Source: a virus. Taken from it: a stretch of DNA of 31,263 bases. Positions 3,089-18,873 of the stretch are shown here, piece by piece. Under the pieces are notes generated by a model, which ran no database searches, had not been told where the DNA came from, and worked only from the letters and a program-made list of their open reading frames with translations. The first letter of the stretch is position 1, and each line of letters starts with the position of its first letter. The stretch covers positions 1 through 31,263 of the IMG/VR virus record IMGVR_UViG_3300035698_005763; one strand, given 5' to 3'. The translations under genes and the position numbers were made by a program.

Positions 3089-3646
3089 TTAAACTGGGTG
3101 GTGCTGCGTCTCTACTGTCAGCAGCTCCGTCATAAATCTTGAAGCTGTAACTTTCAGATCCTCTATACTCCCGCTGTTATACACAGTCATATCATAATCA
3201 AACTCAGCTACATTTTTATCCGCGTGGTTACTATAGAGTTCAGCAACATGCTCGCGCTTAATTAGTACTGTGGTGATTTCGCCGCAGCGTCTTGTTACAG
3301 TTGACTTTAAAACTTTTATCTCTTCAGGCTCGCGTATCATTACAAAGAACACAAGGCGCTTGCTATGCTGTGTGGCTACACTATGCTGCAGATTGTAAGC
3401 TGACATAATATACACAAGTGGCCCGTCGTAGTACTGCGTGCTGAGGTCTTTAAGCTCCGACAGGAACGAGCGGCCATAATCATCCTTTAAACCACCCCAG
3501 CCCAGGATCTCAGCAGCCTCTTTAACTCTGTCCACACTGCTTATACTCTCAACAATTTGCCCTGGCGCACACTCCTTACAGAAGTCTACAAAGCTGTCTT
3601 TACCAACCCCGGGGTGCCCGTTAATTACTACCATATGATGTTGCAT
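3089..3646 (-). CDS. P-loop nucleotide kinase-like protein (possible dNMP kinase)
   Basis: This is a 185-residue protein with a Walker A motif GHPGVGKD at residues 10-17, directly after a hydrophobic strand (MVVIN). This is the layout of nucleoside-monophosphate kinases and related small P-loop enzymes. A later VFFVMIREPEE segment fits a second core strand. I chose the ATG at 3646, not the longer frame from 3703. It starts 1 nt after the polymerase stop, has GAAAGG upstream, and puts the P-loop in its normal N-terminal place. As the last gene of the replication operon it could supply dNTP precursors. The substrate cannot be read from the sequence, and a general P-loop NTPase is the alternative. 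Confidence 0.7.
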   Translation of the reverse strand: MQHHMVVINGHPGVGKDSFVDFCKECAPGQIVESISSVDRVKEAAEILGWGGLKDDYGRSFLSELKDLSTQYYDGPLVYIMSAYNLQHSVATQHSKRLVFFVMIREPEEIKVLKSTVTRRCGEITTVLIKREHVAELYSNHADKNVAEFDYDMTVYNSGSIEDLKVTASRFMTELLTVETQHHPV

Positions 3647-3647
3647 A

Positions 3648-5993
3648 TTATGCCTTTCTGTACCGTCTGCCCCGCCAACCTTCCGATGCCATAGGAAGCC
3701 CAAGCGCCCAGTCCGGTGTTTGGATTATGAGACTATTATAAAAATCAAGATCGCCTGAACCTTCAGGCACCTCGGCTACAGGTTCGTCGTGTACGTGCAT
3801 TACTATTGGGTACCCAGCTTCCTCTGACTTAAACATAGCGTGGCGCAGCAAACAGTTGCTTGCGGCCTGGTCAGCGTTCTCACAGAGTTTACCGCCATAT
3901 GTGTCAACACGCCGCCACTGGCCTTCATTCACCCGCATGTATGTTATTGTGTTGACGAACTTTCCAAACTTCTTACGCTTCAGGATCTGTGGTTTATAAT
4001 AGCGCACGCACCTGCCGGACGGAAGCTGCATCAGCAGGTAGTCTTTCATCATACCAAATTTTATATAAGGCCCAGCTGAGAATGTTTGACTTGGATTTTG
4101 TATAGCTGCAAAAGCTGCAGTTTCTAAAGCGCTCCAGAATGTTAACACTTTAGGCCGGTCAACCCTCCATCTCTGTTTTATTATATCGCAGGACATAGCA
4201 GCCTCTAAACTCATACGGTCAAGAAAACTCGCATTACCAACGTTCTTTTCAAGTTTTAATTTGATAGCATCTTCTAAGTTTTTTAAATACGTTTTAGCTA
4301 TAGACTCAGCTTTTTTAAATTCATAACCGGTAGCAGTTGGCATGACAAGTGCAACTAGTGTCTCCAGGTCAATGCCATAATTCCGCGCCATTGACGCAAA
4401 AGCTCCAATGCCGCCGCCGTAGCCCAAGGATAGTATGCACACCTTGCCTACAGACCTTTGAGCACCCGTAACATCGTCGTACTTAACTCCAAAAATATCA
4501 GAGGCTGCAACCATATACGCATCCCTGCCGTCCCGGTACACCTGCAGGCCCACTTCATCGCACGCCATCCAGAGAAGCATACGCGCTTCAATGCTGCTGA
4601 AATCTGATACTATAAACTCGTTTCCTGGGGCTGCTGTGATGGCCCCGCGCACAGCTGAAGCGGCAAGGCCCATAACATCGCCATACAATGCTTCCACTTC
4701 TCCCCACCCACAGGCCATAGCTCTGTATGCTGCTTCAATATCCTCATCTGTTTTAAGCTCAAACGTTCCGCGAGGCATGTTGTGGAGTTGAAGTAGCTTG
4801 GCTGTCCATCTTCCTGGAGCAGCTCCATTGTTGATAAACACCCCGCGTACCCTAGCGTCGGTCTCCGAAGCCGCACGTAGCATAGCCTCATATTTCGTGG
4901 TCGACGTTTGACCACAGGCAACTCTAATCTCAAGTAAACGTTTGACGTCACCTGGCAGCTCCACATCTCTTAAAAAATATTCAAGTGTATCTTTTGCCGT
5001 ATTCGGCATATCAACCCCGCGCTGAAAGCAGTACTCTTTTATCTTTTTATGCTGGTTAACTGTCTGTATTTTACCACCAGTTACATCTTTTAACTGAGCG
5101 GTCATGTATGCTTTGTAATCGTTAACCATATTGATAGCATCTTGTGCGCCTTTTACATCTATGTGCACACCACGCTGATTGATCTCCTGGTCAAGCCTCC
5201 ACAATTTCATATCATCATAATTCATAGGAGGCATCCGGGTGCTTGCATCATACTCAGCTTCTACATCCTGCAGGCAATACTGACATAGTCGCACAAGATC
5301 CTGCGCGCCCTCAACTGTATCGTGGTGCCAGAAAAGGAAGCTGGCGGGGTCAAAACCCTCCGCCGCAATGTCACTCCAGTTGTCTGCGACAAACGTGCTG
5401 TATGCTTTGCCTTTGGCGTTAGACGCTTCTCTATACATCTGTTTAGCTCTTTCGTAATACGTACAGCCGATAAGCAATCCATCAAGTTTCTCCCATCTCT
5501 TTTTATTCATTGGTAGTGGCTTACACATCTTAAGCATGAGTGCGTGGCCCGCCAAGTCTTTACCCCTACCCGCAGCCGCCAGGCCCAGGGCTTCTGATAG
5601 CGTTTCCAGATCACGCGGCAGCGCGTTTGTTGCCGCCTGCGCTGCGCTGCAGGATCTACGCTCAAGTGGTATCATTGGTACGTCATAGCGTGGCTCCATT
5701 ATATACCTATCAATGGCTTGTTCAAATCCATCATTGTGTGACTCTGTTGTAGTAGTTCCATTATAGTACGCCTGAAGCACAAAATCACTGATAAGATGCA
5801 GCTTGTGGCTACCTGGTAGAAGCCTTCTAAACTTAGGATTAACCCAGATTAAAGACTCGTCAGGGCACCCCTCAGCTATTATTTTTATAGCCAAACAAAT
5901 AACCTGGGTAGACGGGTGCTGCGCATATTTTGCAGCACCCGCTTTTGCCAAATCAACCGCTGAGCATGTTTCATAGTCGCGAATTATTTTCAA
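3648..5993 (-). CDS. DNA polymerase, family A, with 3'-5' exonuclease domain
   Basis: This is the 781-residue phage replicative polymerase. The exonuclease domain shows Exo I DYET (D6, E8), an Exo II-like HNDGFE (D88) and Exo III YCLQDVE (Y239, D243). The polymerase domain has motif A SDFSSIEAR (D464), motif B RSVGKVCILSLGYGG (R513, K517, Y525) and motif C HVHDE (H735, D736, E737). Motif B has Leu at 521, where E. coli Pol I has Phe. The start is TTG at 5993. The next in-frame Met is near residue 98 and would remove Exo I, so TTG is required. The upstream site is only a weak GGTAAG, and the leader is long and structured behind a hammerhead ribozyme, which suggests controlled translation. It ends 1 nt before the kinase-like gene. 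Confidence 0.96.
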   Translation of the reverse strand: MKIIRDYETCSAVDLAKAGAAKYAQHPSTQVICLAIKIIAEGCPDESLIWVNPKFRRLLPGSHKLHLISDFVLQAYYNGTTTTESHNDGFEQAIDRYIMEPRYDVPMIPLERRSCSAAQAATNALPRDLETLSEALGLAAAGRGKDLAGHALMLKMCKPLPMNKKRWEKLDGLLIGCTYYERAKQMYREASNAKGKAYSTFVADNWSDIAAEGFDPASFLFWHHDTVEGAQDLVRLCQYCLQDVEAEYDASTRMPPMNYDDMKLWRLDQEINQRGVHIDVKGAQDAINMVNDYKAYMTAQLKDVTGGKIQTVNQHKKIKEYCFQRGVDMPNTAKDTLEYFLRDVELPGDVKRLLEIRVACGQTSTTKYEAMLRAASETDARVRGVFINNGAAPGRWTAKLLQLHNMPRGTFELKTDEDIEAAYRAMACGWGEVEALYGDVMGLAASAVRGAITAAPGNEFIVSDFSSIEARMLLWMACDEVGLQVYRDGRDAYMVAASDIFGVKYDDVTGAQRSVGKVCILSLGYGGGIGAFASMARNYGIDLETLVALVMPTATGYEFKKAESIAKTYLKNLEDAIKLKLEKNVGNASFLDRMSLEAAMSCDIIKQRWRVDRPKVLTFWSALETAAFAAIQNPSQTFSAGPYIKFGMMKDYLLMQLPSGRCVRYYKPQILKRKKFGKFVNTITYMRVNEGQWRRVDTYGGKLCENADQAASNCLLRHAMFKSEEAGYPIVMHVHDEPVAEVPEGSGDLDFYNSLIIQTPDWALGLPMASEGWRGRRYRKA

Positions 5994-6055: not shown

Positions 6056-6169
6056 AAGAGGCTTCGTATCTGGCTACCACATCCCGCCTGTCCAGTCTTA
6101 GCTGTCAATGCTTAAAAAGATTTAAGCGCTCACAGCTAAGGGCGGGCCTTGTCCCACTCACAGCCTCTT
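6056..6169 (-). ncRNA. Extended nested stem structure in the polymerase leader
   Basis: Four pairs of complementary segments nest inside one another. They are 6056-6063 with 6162-6169 (8 bp), 6083-6088 with 6141-6146 (6 bp), 6097-6105 with 6132-6140 (9 bp), and 6110-6116 with 6121-6127 (7 bp, loop AAGA on the plus strand). No ORF explains the region. On the minus strand it lies just after the hammerhead cleavage site, so it would be part of the new 5' end of the polymerase mRNA. It could protect that mRNA, control translation, or act as a DNA hairpin in replication. Stem complementarity is seen directly; function is inferred. Confidence 0.55.
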
Positions 6170-6177
6170 CAATGGGC

Positions 6178-6233
6178 CTACGCTATAACCCCCGCAGGGG
6201 TTATTTCGAGTTATAAACTCTCATCAGGCGTAG
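6178..6233 (-). ncRNA. Hammerhead self-cleaving ribozyme (type I topology)
   Basis: On the minus strand the order is stem I 5' arm CTACGC, core CTGATGA, stem II GAGTT-TAT-AACTC, core GAA, stem III ATAACCCC-TGCG-GGGGTTAT, cleavage nucleotide A, then stem I 3' arm GCGTAG. Every core base of the hammerhead consensus is present, including the G-C closing pair of stem II and the A-U pair of stem III before the cleavage base. The cleavage triplet is ATA, which fits the NUH rule. Cleavage would fall between minus-strand bases 6184 and 6183. The open end is stem I, giving type I topology. Stem I is short and loop II has only three bases, so tertiary contacts may be weak. It begins 4 nt after the ssDNA-binding gene stop. 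Confidence 0.88.
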
Positions 6234-6237
6234 TTTA

Positions 6238-7032
6238 CTAGATAAGGCTTTTAGGCTGCGCCATTACCGGATTGCCATGCTGGTCAACAGGCGCGCCATT
6301 CATATTAATACCGCTGTTCGCTGCAGCCTTGTCGCCTGTATTCAGCCACTCATTTGCCTCAGCTGCAGAAGCCCCGCCGTCTAAAGCATTTCCAGCATAC
6401 AAGCTCGGGTCAGCTCCACCACATGCTGCAAACATATCCGTAATAGGTGGAGCGCCGCCACCGAAGGCTTCGTCTTCACGTACAAGCTGTACACCATTAA
6501 GCCCGAAGGTTACACCGCCGCCGCTGGTTGCGTACGCATACGCCTGCAGGTTGACCTTGTACCAGTAGCCGGATCTGCAGAGATTAGGGTCGATAGCCTC
6601 CATGTTAGGGCCTACAACGTGCGGGCGCTGGCTTTCAAGAGCGCTGGCTGTGATAATGAAGTGGCCTGCGTACTCTGGGTTTGCTTCTTTTATCGGTATA
6701 TGCTTATCATTGATCGCAACATCAGCATCCTTTATCGGACACTTCGGCCCCAGTGTAGGCTGGTCAGCGATGATTGGCGTGCGCGGCCTGCTGGTAGGGT
6801 CAGGCCACTGCTCGTTTACACAGGCGATCAAATCCTCTTTCAGCTTGGACAGTGCTGCCAGGTGCGCCGGGTTATTCTTTGCAAACATGAGAGTGATACC
6901 AAATTTAGGCGCTGAGCCCTCCATATATGCTCTCGCTTTAGCCAATGTTACATACCCACACCGTACTGCGTCAGCGCCGCCGACGCTGGGTATAGTTACT
7001 GCTGGTCTGTTTACTGATTTACCTTTTGCCAT
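6238..7032 (-). CDS. DUF2815 family, single-stranded DNA-binding-like protein
   Basis: This 264-residue protein fits the DUF2815 family, found in phage replication clusters and thought to bind ssDNA. Supporting segments are the basic N-terminus, FGITLMFAKNNPAHL, the PIKDADV and GHFIITASA segments, and YWYKVNLQAYAYATSGGGVTFGLNGVQLVREDEAFGGG near residue 200, where such proteins have their OB-fold-like strands. The frame is open back to a GTG at 7149, but I chose the ATG at 7032 because GGAGGAG lies 9-11 nt upstream and the family starts there. The C-terminus is Gly/Ala-rich and lacks the acidic tip of bacterial SSB. Its partners are probably the DUF2800 protein upstream and the polymerase downstream. 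A hammerhead ribozyme follows its stop codon. Confidence 0.82.
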   Translation of the reverse strand: MAKGKSVNRPAVTIPSVGGADAVRCGYVTLAKARAYMEGSAPKFGITLMFAKNNPAHLAALSKLKEDLIACVNEQWPDPTSRPRTPIIADQPTLGPKCPIKDADVAINDKHIPIKEANPEYAGHFIITASALESQRPHVVGPNMEAIDPNLCRSGYWYKVNLQAYAYATSGGGVTFGLNGVQLVREDEAFGGGAPPITDMFAACGGADPSLYAGNALDGGASAAEANEWLNTGDKAAANSGINMNGAPVDQHGNPVMAQPKSLI

Positions 7033-7156
7033 AATCTTTTGCTCCTCCATATTGTTTAAGTTGATGTAAAATTTGAGTGGGCCGCCGGTGTTCTCTTCTC
7101 TCGGGTTTTGAGGCCATATGCCATCAATCTTAGACACCAGCGCCCTCACTCTTTTA

Positions 7157-11969: not shown

Positions 11970-11996
11970 ATCATTTCCTATCATTTAAGATTTGTA

Positions 11997-12044
11997 TATC
12001 AATCTGCCTATCAATCTGCCTATCAATCTGCCTATCAATCTGCC
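11997..12044 (-). repeat. Four perfect 12-bp tandem repeats
   Basis: The unit TATCAATCTGCC (GGCAGATTGATA on the minus strand) occurs four times with no mismatch. It lies in the 5' untranslated part of the small membrane protein gene. It could be a replication iteron, a binding array, or a slippage-prone spacer. Confidence 0.9.
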
Positions 12045-12074
12045 TCATCAGTACCTGGGGATCGTTCCAGATAT

Positions 12075-12092
12075 ATGCCTCCTCAGAGGCAT
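12075..12092 (-). terminator. Hairpin after the 136-aa gene, possible weak terminator
   Basis: This is a perfect 7-bp stem, ATGCCTC with GAGGCAT and a 4-nt loop, 24 nt downstream of the minus-strand gene ending at 12116. It is followed on that strand only by ATATCT, without a proper T-tract, so termination would be partial. It could equally be a processing or stability hairpin. Confidence 0.35.
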
Positions 12093-12115
12093 TTCGGCTT
12101 AATTGCCTTTTACTT

Positions 12116-18827: not shown

Positions 18828-18873
18828 CCCGCCGCACCTCTTAACAATGTGAAAATCCGGCGGGTTTTTATTT
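18828..18873 (+). terminator. Rho-independent terminator
   Basis: CCCGCCG (18828-18834) pairs with CGGCGGG (18858-18864), with an extra CAC/GTG pair inside, followed directly by TTTTTATTT. The 23-nt apical loop is long. It would end the short transcript from the 18731 promoter and transcripts from the resolvase operon, before the late genes. Confidence 0.75.

Follow-up and report, generated by a model that had tools for sequence, protein, structure and literature searches.

Background

In the glmS ribozyme-riboswitch and in engineered hammerhead aptazymes, a ribozyme is coupled to a folded RNA domain that can control it. Hammerhead ribozymes have been described in prophages as flanking genes or blocks of genes (Perreault et al. 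2011, PMC3088659), and the purpose of phage and bacterial hammerheads is still regarded as unsettled (PMC6155905). The RAGATH motifs are structured RNAs near twister- or hammerhead-associated genes, one of which, RAGATH-18, became a TnpB guide RNA (PMC11061315).

Here we describe a locus in a stretch of viral DNA of 31,263 nucleotides (hereafter the window), a 31-kb virus record with podovirus-type head-tail and tail proteins, in which a type I hammerhead is followed at once by a conserved double-pseudoknot RNA. We consider it probable that the hammerhead serves as the 5'-end maker for this conserved phage RNA, which is here the leader of a polymerase mRNA, and that the two parts are inherited or transferred as a unit, which we call the module.

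Results and discussion

Identification of a type I hammerhead between two replication genes

The minus strand of the window from position 6233 to 6178 reads CUACGC-CUGAUGA-GAGUU(UAU)AACUC-GAA-AUAACCCC(UGCG)GGGGUUAU-A-GCGUAG. Stem I consists of 6 bp (6233-6228/6183-6178) and encloses the core segment CUGAUGA at 6227-6221, stem II of 5 bp with a 3-nt loop (6220-6216/6212-6208), the GAA at 6207-6205, and stem III of 8 bp with an A15.1-U16.1 closing pair (6204-6197/6192-6185); A17 is at 6184, which places the predicted cut at 6184/6183. The invariant core CUGANGA/GAA, with A15.1-U16.1 and H17, is thus present and agrees with the consensus at every base, and the three-stem layout, with stems II and III closed by loops and stem I open, is that of type I. 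The minimum free energy (MFE) fold of the segment is exactly the hammerhead structure (z = -3.4), and the predicted probability of stem I falls to 0.2-0.6 in long flanking contexts. A possible long-range extension of stem I (AGCCU/AGGCU), noticed by eye, would compete with helix P1 of the downstream RNA described below and sits in the end of the coding sequence of the upstream gene.

The hammerhead lies in a minus-strand operon that starts with an ORF of 136 aa, a type II hammerhead (12099-12034) and small ORFs, and continues with genes for an SNF2-type helicase, two unknown proteins, a DUF2800 exonuclease and a gp2.5/Enc34-like ssDNA-binding protein (SSB), the type I hammerhead and the gene for a family A DNA polymerase. 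The SSB gene (6238-7149, minus strand) is directly upstream of the module, and since the homology of its ORF to that of the relative L007 (see below) starts near residue 35, its true start is probably internal. Its stop codon TAG occupies 6240-6238, and the hammerhead starts 4 nt after it. Downstream of the module, the polymerase gene (3648-5993, minus strand) has its predicted start, a TTG, at 5993. Because no terminator was found in the window between the module and the polymerase gene, the module is here part of the polymerase leader, and a separate small RNA is not evident in the window. The earlier note, made from the letters of this DNA, had proposed a complete type I hammerhead at 6178-6233 on the minus strand, in sense orientation between the genes for the ssDNA-binding protein and the DNA polymerase; its coordinates, core bases and placement were all correct, and the MFE fold agrees with it.

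Verification of the hammerhead by simulation and covariance models

A motif scan gave a single type I match in the window. When 9.4 Mb of Markov-simulated sequence with the dinucleotide content of the window was scanned in the same way, one weaker match and none as strong was obtained, and the analytic chance expectation, with G-U pairs allowed, is about 7e-8 per window. The hammerhead models of Rfam, including RF00163, did not report the type I hammerhead of the window even at E <= 10; they also give too low a score to related type I hammerheads of phages, such as that of contig L108 (28.4 bits against a cut-off of 34). As the Rfam models were silent, an independent covariance test was built. 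IMG/VR was scanned with the pattern CCTGATGAG..CGAAA..TAG, in which the core bases and the core-proximal pairs were fixed and the other stem positions left free. The 70 stretches obtained have complementary stems in about 30 of these contigs, which is far above chance and indicates that such hammerheads are common in phages. A covariance model (CM), R1, made from 21 phage type I hammerheads that did not include the window copy, scores the window hammerhead at 43.0 bits (E 1.1e-10), and it gave no match over 935 kb of polymerase-bearing relatives. The stems of 35 distinct hammerheads covary strongly in an alignment that was fitted to the structure and whose members were chosen for pairing.

The covariance search that the earlier note had called for was therefore positive with our own model and negative with those of Rfam. 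Its remark that phage hammerheads usually have other topologies did not hold, since type I hammerheads whose stems are just as short are common among phage contigs, and hammerheads flanking genes or gene blocks in prophages had already been described in 2011 (PMC3088659).

Taken by itself, stem III looks like a common kind of GC-rich hairpin, and the segment might on this ground be taken for a chance resemblance or for a terminator misread as a hammerhead. An expectation of about 1e-7, the match to an independent CM and the conservation of the module speak against this, and no U-tract follows the hairpin, so that the terminator reading was rejected; we regard this explanation as barely conceivable and, as far as sequence can show, effectively refuted already. 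The reading of the segment as coding sequence was likewise rejected. Judged in this way, the segment 6233-6178 is a real hammerhead and, taken alone, an ordinary phage type I hammerhead; its perfect core and its family suggest that it would cleave itself at 6184/6183.

Other hammerheads in the window and in phage contigs

The type II hammerhead near the 5' end of the operon (12034-12099, minus strand) matches Rfam RF02276 with 46.2 bits (cut-off 37), and base pairing is possible between its loop I (CGAUC) and the 3' tail (GAUUG), which would form the pseudoknot described for type II. Two hammerheads of differing type in one operon bracket the middle of the replication operon. Both are on the same strand and appear to belong to one common transcript, so that, as among clustered prophage hammerheads, at least two flank genes of what is presumably a single transcript. 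Neither this type II hammerhead nor the structured RNA directly downstream of the type I hammerhead had been mentioned in the earlier note. A similar type II hammerhead is carried by Roseobacter phage CRP-7 (L106 570-633).

Several further features were observed in the course of the analysis. Directly after the type II core, at 11990-12049 on the minus strand, there are tandem 12-nt repeats (AGGCAGATTGAT), each copy of which repeats the 3' strand of stem II and its pseudoknot partner. A borderline match to the abiF RNA (36.9 bits against a cut-off of 37) at 18828-18865 on the plus strand consists of a GC hairpin with a run of T after it and may represent no more than a terminator. Several contigs (L109, L134, L135 and L147) contain 3-6 hammerheads each, with up to six of type I/III within 2.6 kb in L134 (333-2892) and several of type II within 4 kb in L109 (5603-9632); such clusters agree with what was published on prophage hammerheads (PMC3088659). 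In the isolated Xanthomonas phage RiverRider, an unannotated, lone hammerhead of type I lies a short way upstream of a tRNA cluster (L201 1480-1550). The genes flanking the hammerheads in the collected contigs encode mostly small unknown proteins and ATPases, and none of those tested encodes an SSB or a family A polymerase.

A double-pseudoknot RNA directly follows the hammerhead

Folding showed that the whole gap between the SSB and polymerase genes is strongly structured (z = -6.2), including about 120 nt after the hammerhead. A single G (6177, minus strand) joins stem I to helix Pa of a conserved double-pseudoknot RNA (6057-6176, minus strand), which was defined by an alignment of five copies, pair counts, a helix check and a leave-one-out CM, R3. 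Its helices are Pa (6176-6171/6158-6153, CCCAUU/AGUGGG), P1 (6168-6162/6063-6057, AGAGGCU/AGCCUCU), P2 (6146-6141/6088-6083, CCCGCC/GGCGGG), P3 (6140-6132/6105-6097), P4 (6127-6121/6116-6110) and Pb (6095-6092/6073-6070, CUGG/CCAG). Pa crosses P1 and Pb crosses P2, giving two pseudoknots with compensatory changes in each, and all six helices form fully in every one of the five copies. The mean column identity of the five-copy alignment is 75%, and GGACAAGG and UACGA are invariant. Two-sided changes were found at 13 of 32 pairs and are present in all five helices counted, the crossing ones included; for these five helices, none of 500 shuffles reached the observed covariation score. When R3 was built from the other four copies, it scored the window RNA at 101 bits (E 1.2e-21). 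No Rfam 15 family matched the pseudoknot RNA (6177-6057) in any copy.

A conserved unpaired core within a double pseudoknot is a typical feature of small ribozymes, and in work on twister-sister, pistol and hatchet new ribozyme classes were reportedly found near hammerheads; the pseudoknot RNA might accordingly be imagined as a second, undescribed self-cleaving ribozyme, the pair excising a small RNA. We think this very unlikely, for there is no Rfam match to any ribozyme, the anatomy is unlike the HDV order and no second cut site can be named. An HDV-like fold was rejected: between the 5' strand of P2 and the 3' strand of P1, where HDV-like ribozymes have the P3 hairpin, there are only 3 nt.

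No clear tertiary contact between stem I and loop II was found in the window, and no common one among the relatives. As such a contact is not evident and the pseudoknot RNA is attached where one could come from, gating of the hammerhead was kept as a serious rival explanation. According to it, the pseudoknot RNA would dock at stem I and toggle cleavage, perhaps on binding a ligand or a protein, like engineered aptazymes. The constant one-base link to stem I in every copy, the conserved CUANGC of stem I, the high conservation of the unpaired GGACAAGG and UACGA, and a loop II that has no contact inside the hammerhead itself are all in keeping with a switch of this kind. On the other hand, the neighbouring genes suggest no ligand or shared gene function, a minimal hammerhead can cut unaided, if slowly, and loop II varies between copies; on balance we regard a natural ribozyme switch as unlikely.

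The module is absent from the closest relative and present in unrelated contigs

A search for relatives with the single polymerase protein found no close one. With two-member alignments of polymerase and SSB as queries, only contig L007 came out as close, and a scan of genome contigs gave one distant polymerase. The polymerase of L007 is 61% identical to that of the window and its SSB 65% over 220 residues, and the two genes have the same order; only about 60 nt lie between them, without a hammerhead, and the entire module of about 185 nt is absent. Loss of the core bases in a close relative with the flanking genes kept had been named beforehand as evidence against the hammerhead. Taken literally, this is what L007 displays, but what is missing is the whole module; thus the module behaves as a unit, and the difference points to gain or loss of that unit rather than to decay of the core. 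The genome of L007 also gave a weak match to the type II model of Rfam (G001 37415-37502, 13.5 bits), which was not taken as real.

By comparing the flanks of all collected hammerheads, we found the module of hammerhead and pseudoknot RNA in four more contigs (L108/L204, L132/L162, L145 and L154). In each of the five copies, the last base of stem I is followed by one G and then by the same RNA. Nucleotide matches among the five contigs are limited to these two elements, and among the surrounding proteins the only relationship is that of a distant terminase pair (L204 and L206). No SSB or polymerase gene was seen beside the module in the four other contigs: a queuine tRNA-ribosyltransferase gene is upstream of it in L132, terminase-type genes lie at most a few kb away in L204, L206 and L207, and small ORFs on the opposite strand adjoin it in L145/L205. 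Inspection by eye revealed a terminator-like hairpin after the pseudoknot RNA in L145 and another just before the hammerhead in both L145 and L204. The L145 copy resembles an independent RNA gene that has a terminator of its own more than it does a message leader.

Two other sequences lie downstream of module copies. In L204, a sub-threshold twister-sister match (3384-3454, plus strand; 27.6 bits against a cut-off of 34) follows about 190 nt after the pseudoknot RNA. In L207, a tRNA-like sequence just after the pseudoknot RNA (3697-3768, plus strand) was missed by ARAGORN and is weak in Rfam (tRNA-Sec, 26.8 bits).

The structured RNA was first searched for with a pattern that had two matches, both rejected as chance hits in coding sequence. 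A second pattern, made from the RNA alone, gave 23 stretches, among which the real ones were only the known module copies, all with a hammerhead; the others were chance matches in coding sequence. CM searches over hammerhead and pattern loci (747 kb) and over polymerase loci (935 kb) found no further copies. Nothing resembling the module was found in isolate phages by blastn or in plasmids searched with the window copy, no copy was found in 392 genomes of one phylum, which may not be that of the host, and no description of such a module was found in the open-access literature.

Its presence in unrelated contigs and its absence from the closest relative would also suit a selfish element, a small mobile piece of RNA or DNA that does not serve the phage. 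Such an origin is highly improbable, given that each genome among the pattern-searched records had the module only once and that no ORF and no terminal repeats were seen.

Probable role of the module

The earlier note had regarded the placement as the key and the separation of SSB from polymerase output as the purpose. Separation is possible at this locus; the placement is not the key, as the module occurs in four other contigs in which neither gene is seen beside it. In its general form this idea is one of simple operon processing, in which the hammerhead splits the SSB from the polymerase mRNA for separate making or decay and the downstream structure is a stabilising leader. The hammerhead does lie in sense orientation between two cistrons, a second hammerhead is predicted to cut the operon further upstream, and prophage hammerheads flank gene blocks (PMC3088659). 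Decoupling of SSB and polymerase cannot, however, explain the other locations of the module, where no such gene adjoins, and the sequence of a generic leader, with its two pseudoknots, would not be retained in phages that are unrelated to one another. We therefore consider simple operon processing rather unlikely.

The same pair of elements in four otherwise unrelated phage sequences makes it probable that the hammerhead trims a new phage RNA at its front end. According to this preferred explanation, the type I hammerhead would cut itself at 6184/6183 during or soon after transcription. The upstream SSB message would then have the ribozyme body, and a 2',3'-cyclic phosphate, at its end, and the downstream RNA would start with 5'-OH GCGUAG-G-CCCAUU, leading directly into the double-pseudoknot RNA, for which the provision of a defined 5' end would be the main job of the hammerhead. 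In the window the processed RNA would be the leader of the DNA polymerase message and would most likely protect or regulate that message. End protection, control of polymerase translation, action in trans and control of the hammerhead are possible roles of the pseudoknot RNA. It is possible, and we suggest it tentatively, that the module represents a new natural class of two-domain RNA, in which the hammerhead is coupled either to a pseudoknot domain that gates cleavage by sensing or to a trans-acting RNA that is released.

A hammerhead at constant spacing from a conserved RNA would give a concrete answer to the question of purpose, namely that it makes the 5' end of that RNA, and if the pseudoknot domain gates cleavage, the module would be a natural counterpart of engineered aptazymes. 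The results also add an RNA family that is missing from the current Rfam models and show that the type I model of Rfam misses or under-scores phage hammerheads.

Comparison with known systems

The hammerhead of the window resembles the bacterial and phage type I hammerheads described previously (PMC3088659) in its core, in the order of its stems, in its short stems I and II, and in lying in sense orientation between phage genes with several hammerheads per operon; it differs from them in the one-base join to a double-pseudoknot RNA, in its placement between SSB and polymerase genes and in being missed by the Rfam models. Type II hammerheads (RF02276, represented by 12099-12034 of the window and by that of CRP-7) belong to the same ribozyme class, and the copy in the window shares operon and strand with the type I hammerhead, but in type II the open stem is stem II instead of stem I and no pseudoknot RNA is attached. 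With HDV-like ribozymes the module has in common two interleaved pseudoknots and a compact RNA that starts at the cleavage site; here, in contrast, the hammerhead and not the pseudoknot RNA is predicted to cut, and the conserved bases are others. From glmS and the engineered aptazymes the module differs in its ribozyme and its sequence, and control of the hammerhead is here only a candidate function. Like the RAGATH motifs, it has a conserved structured RNA beside a hammerhead; it is set apart from them by an RNA that matches no Rfam 15 family and by the direct join to the hammerhead, which is fixed in all five copies.
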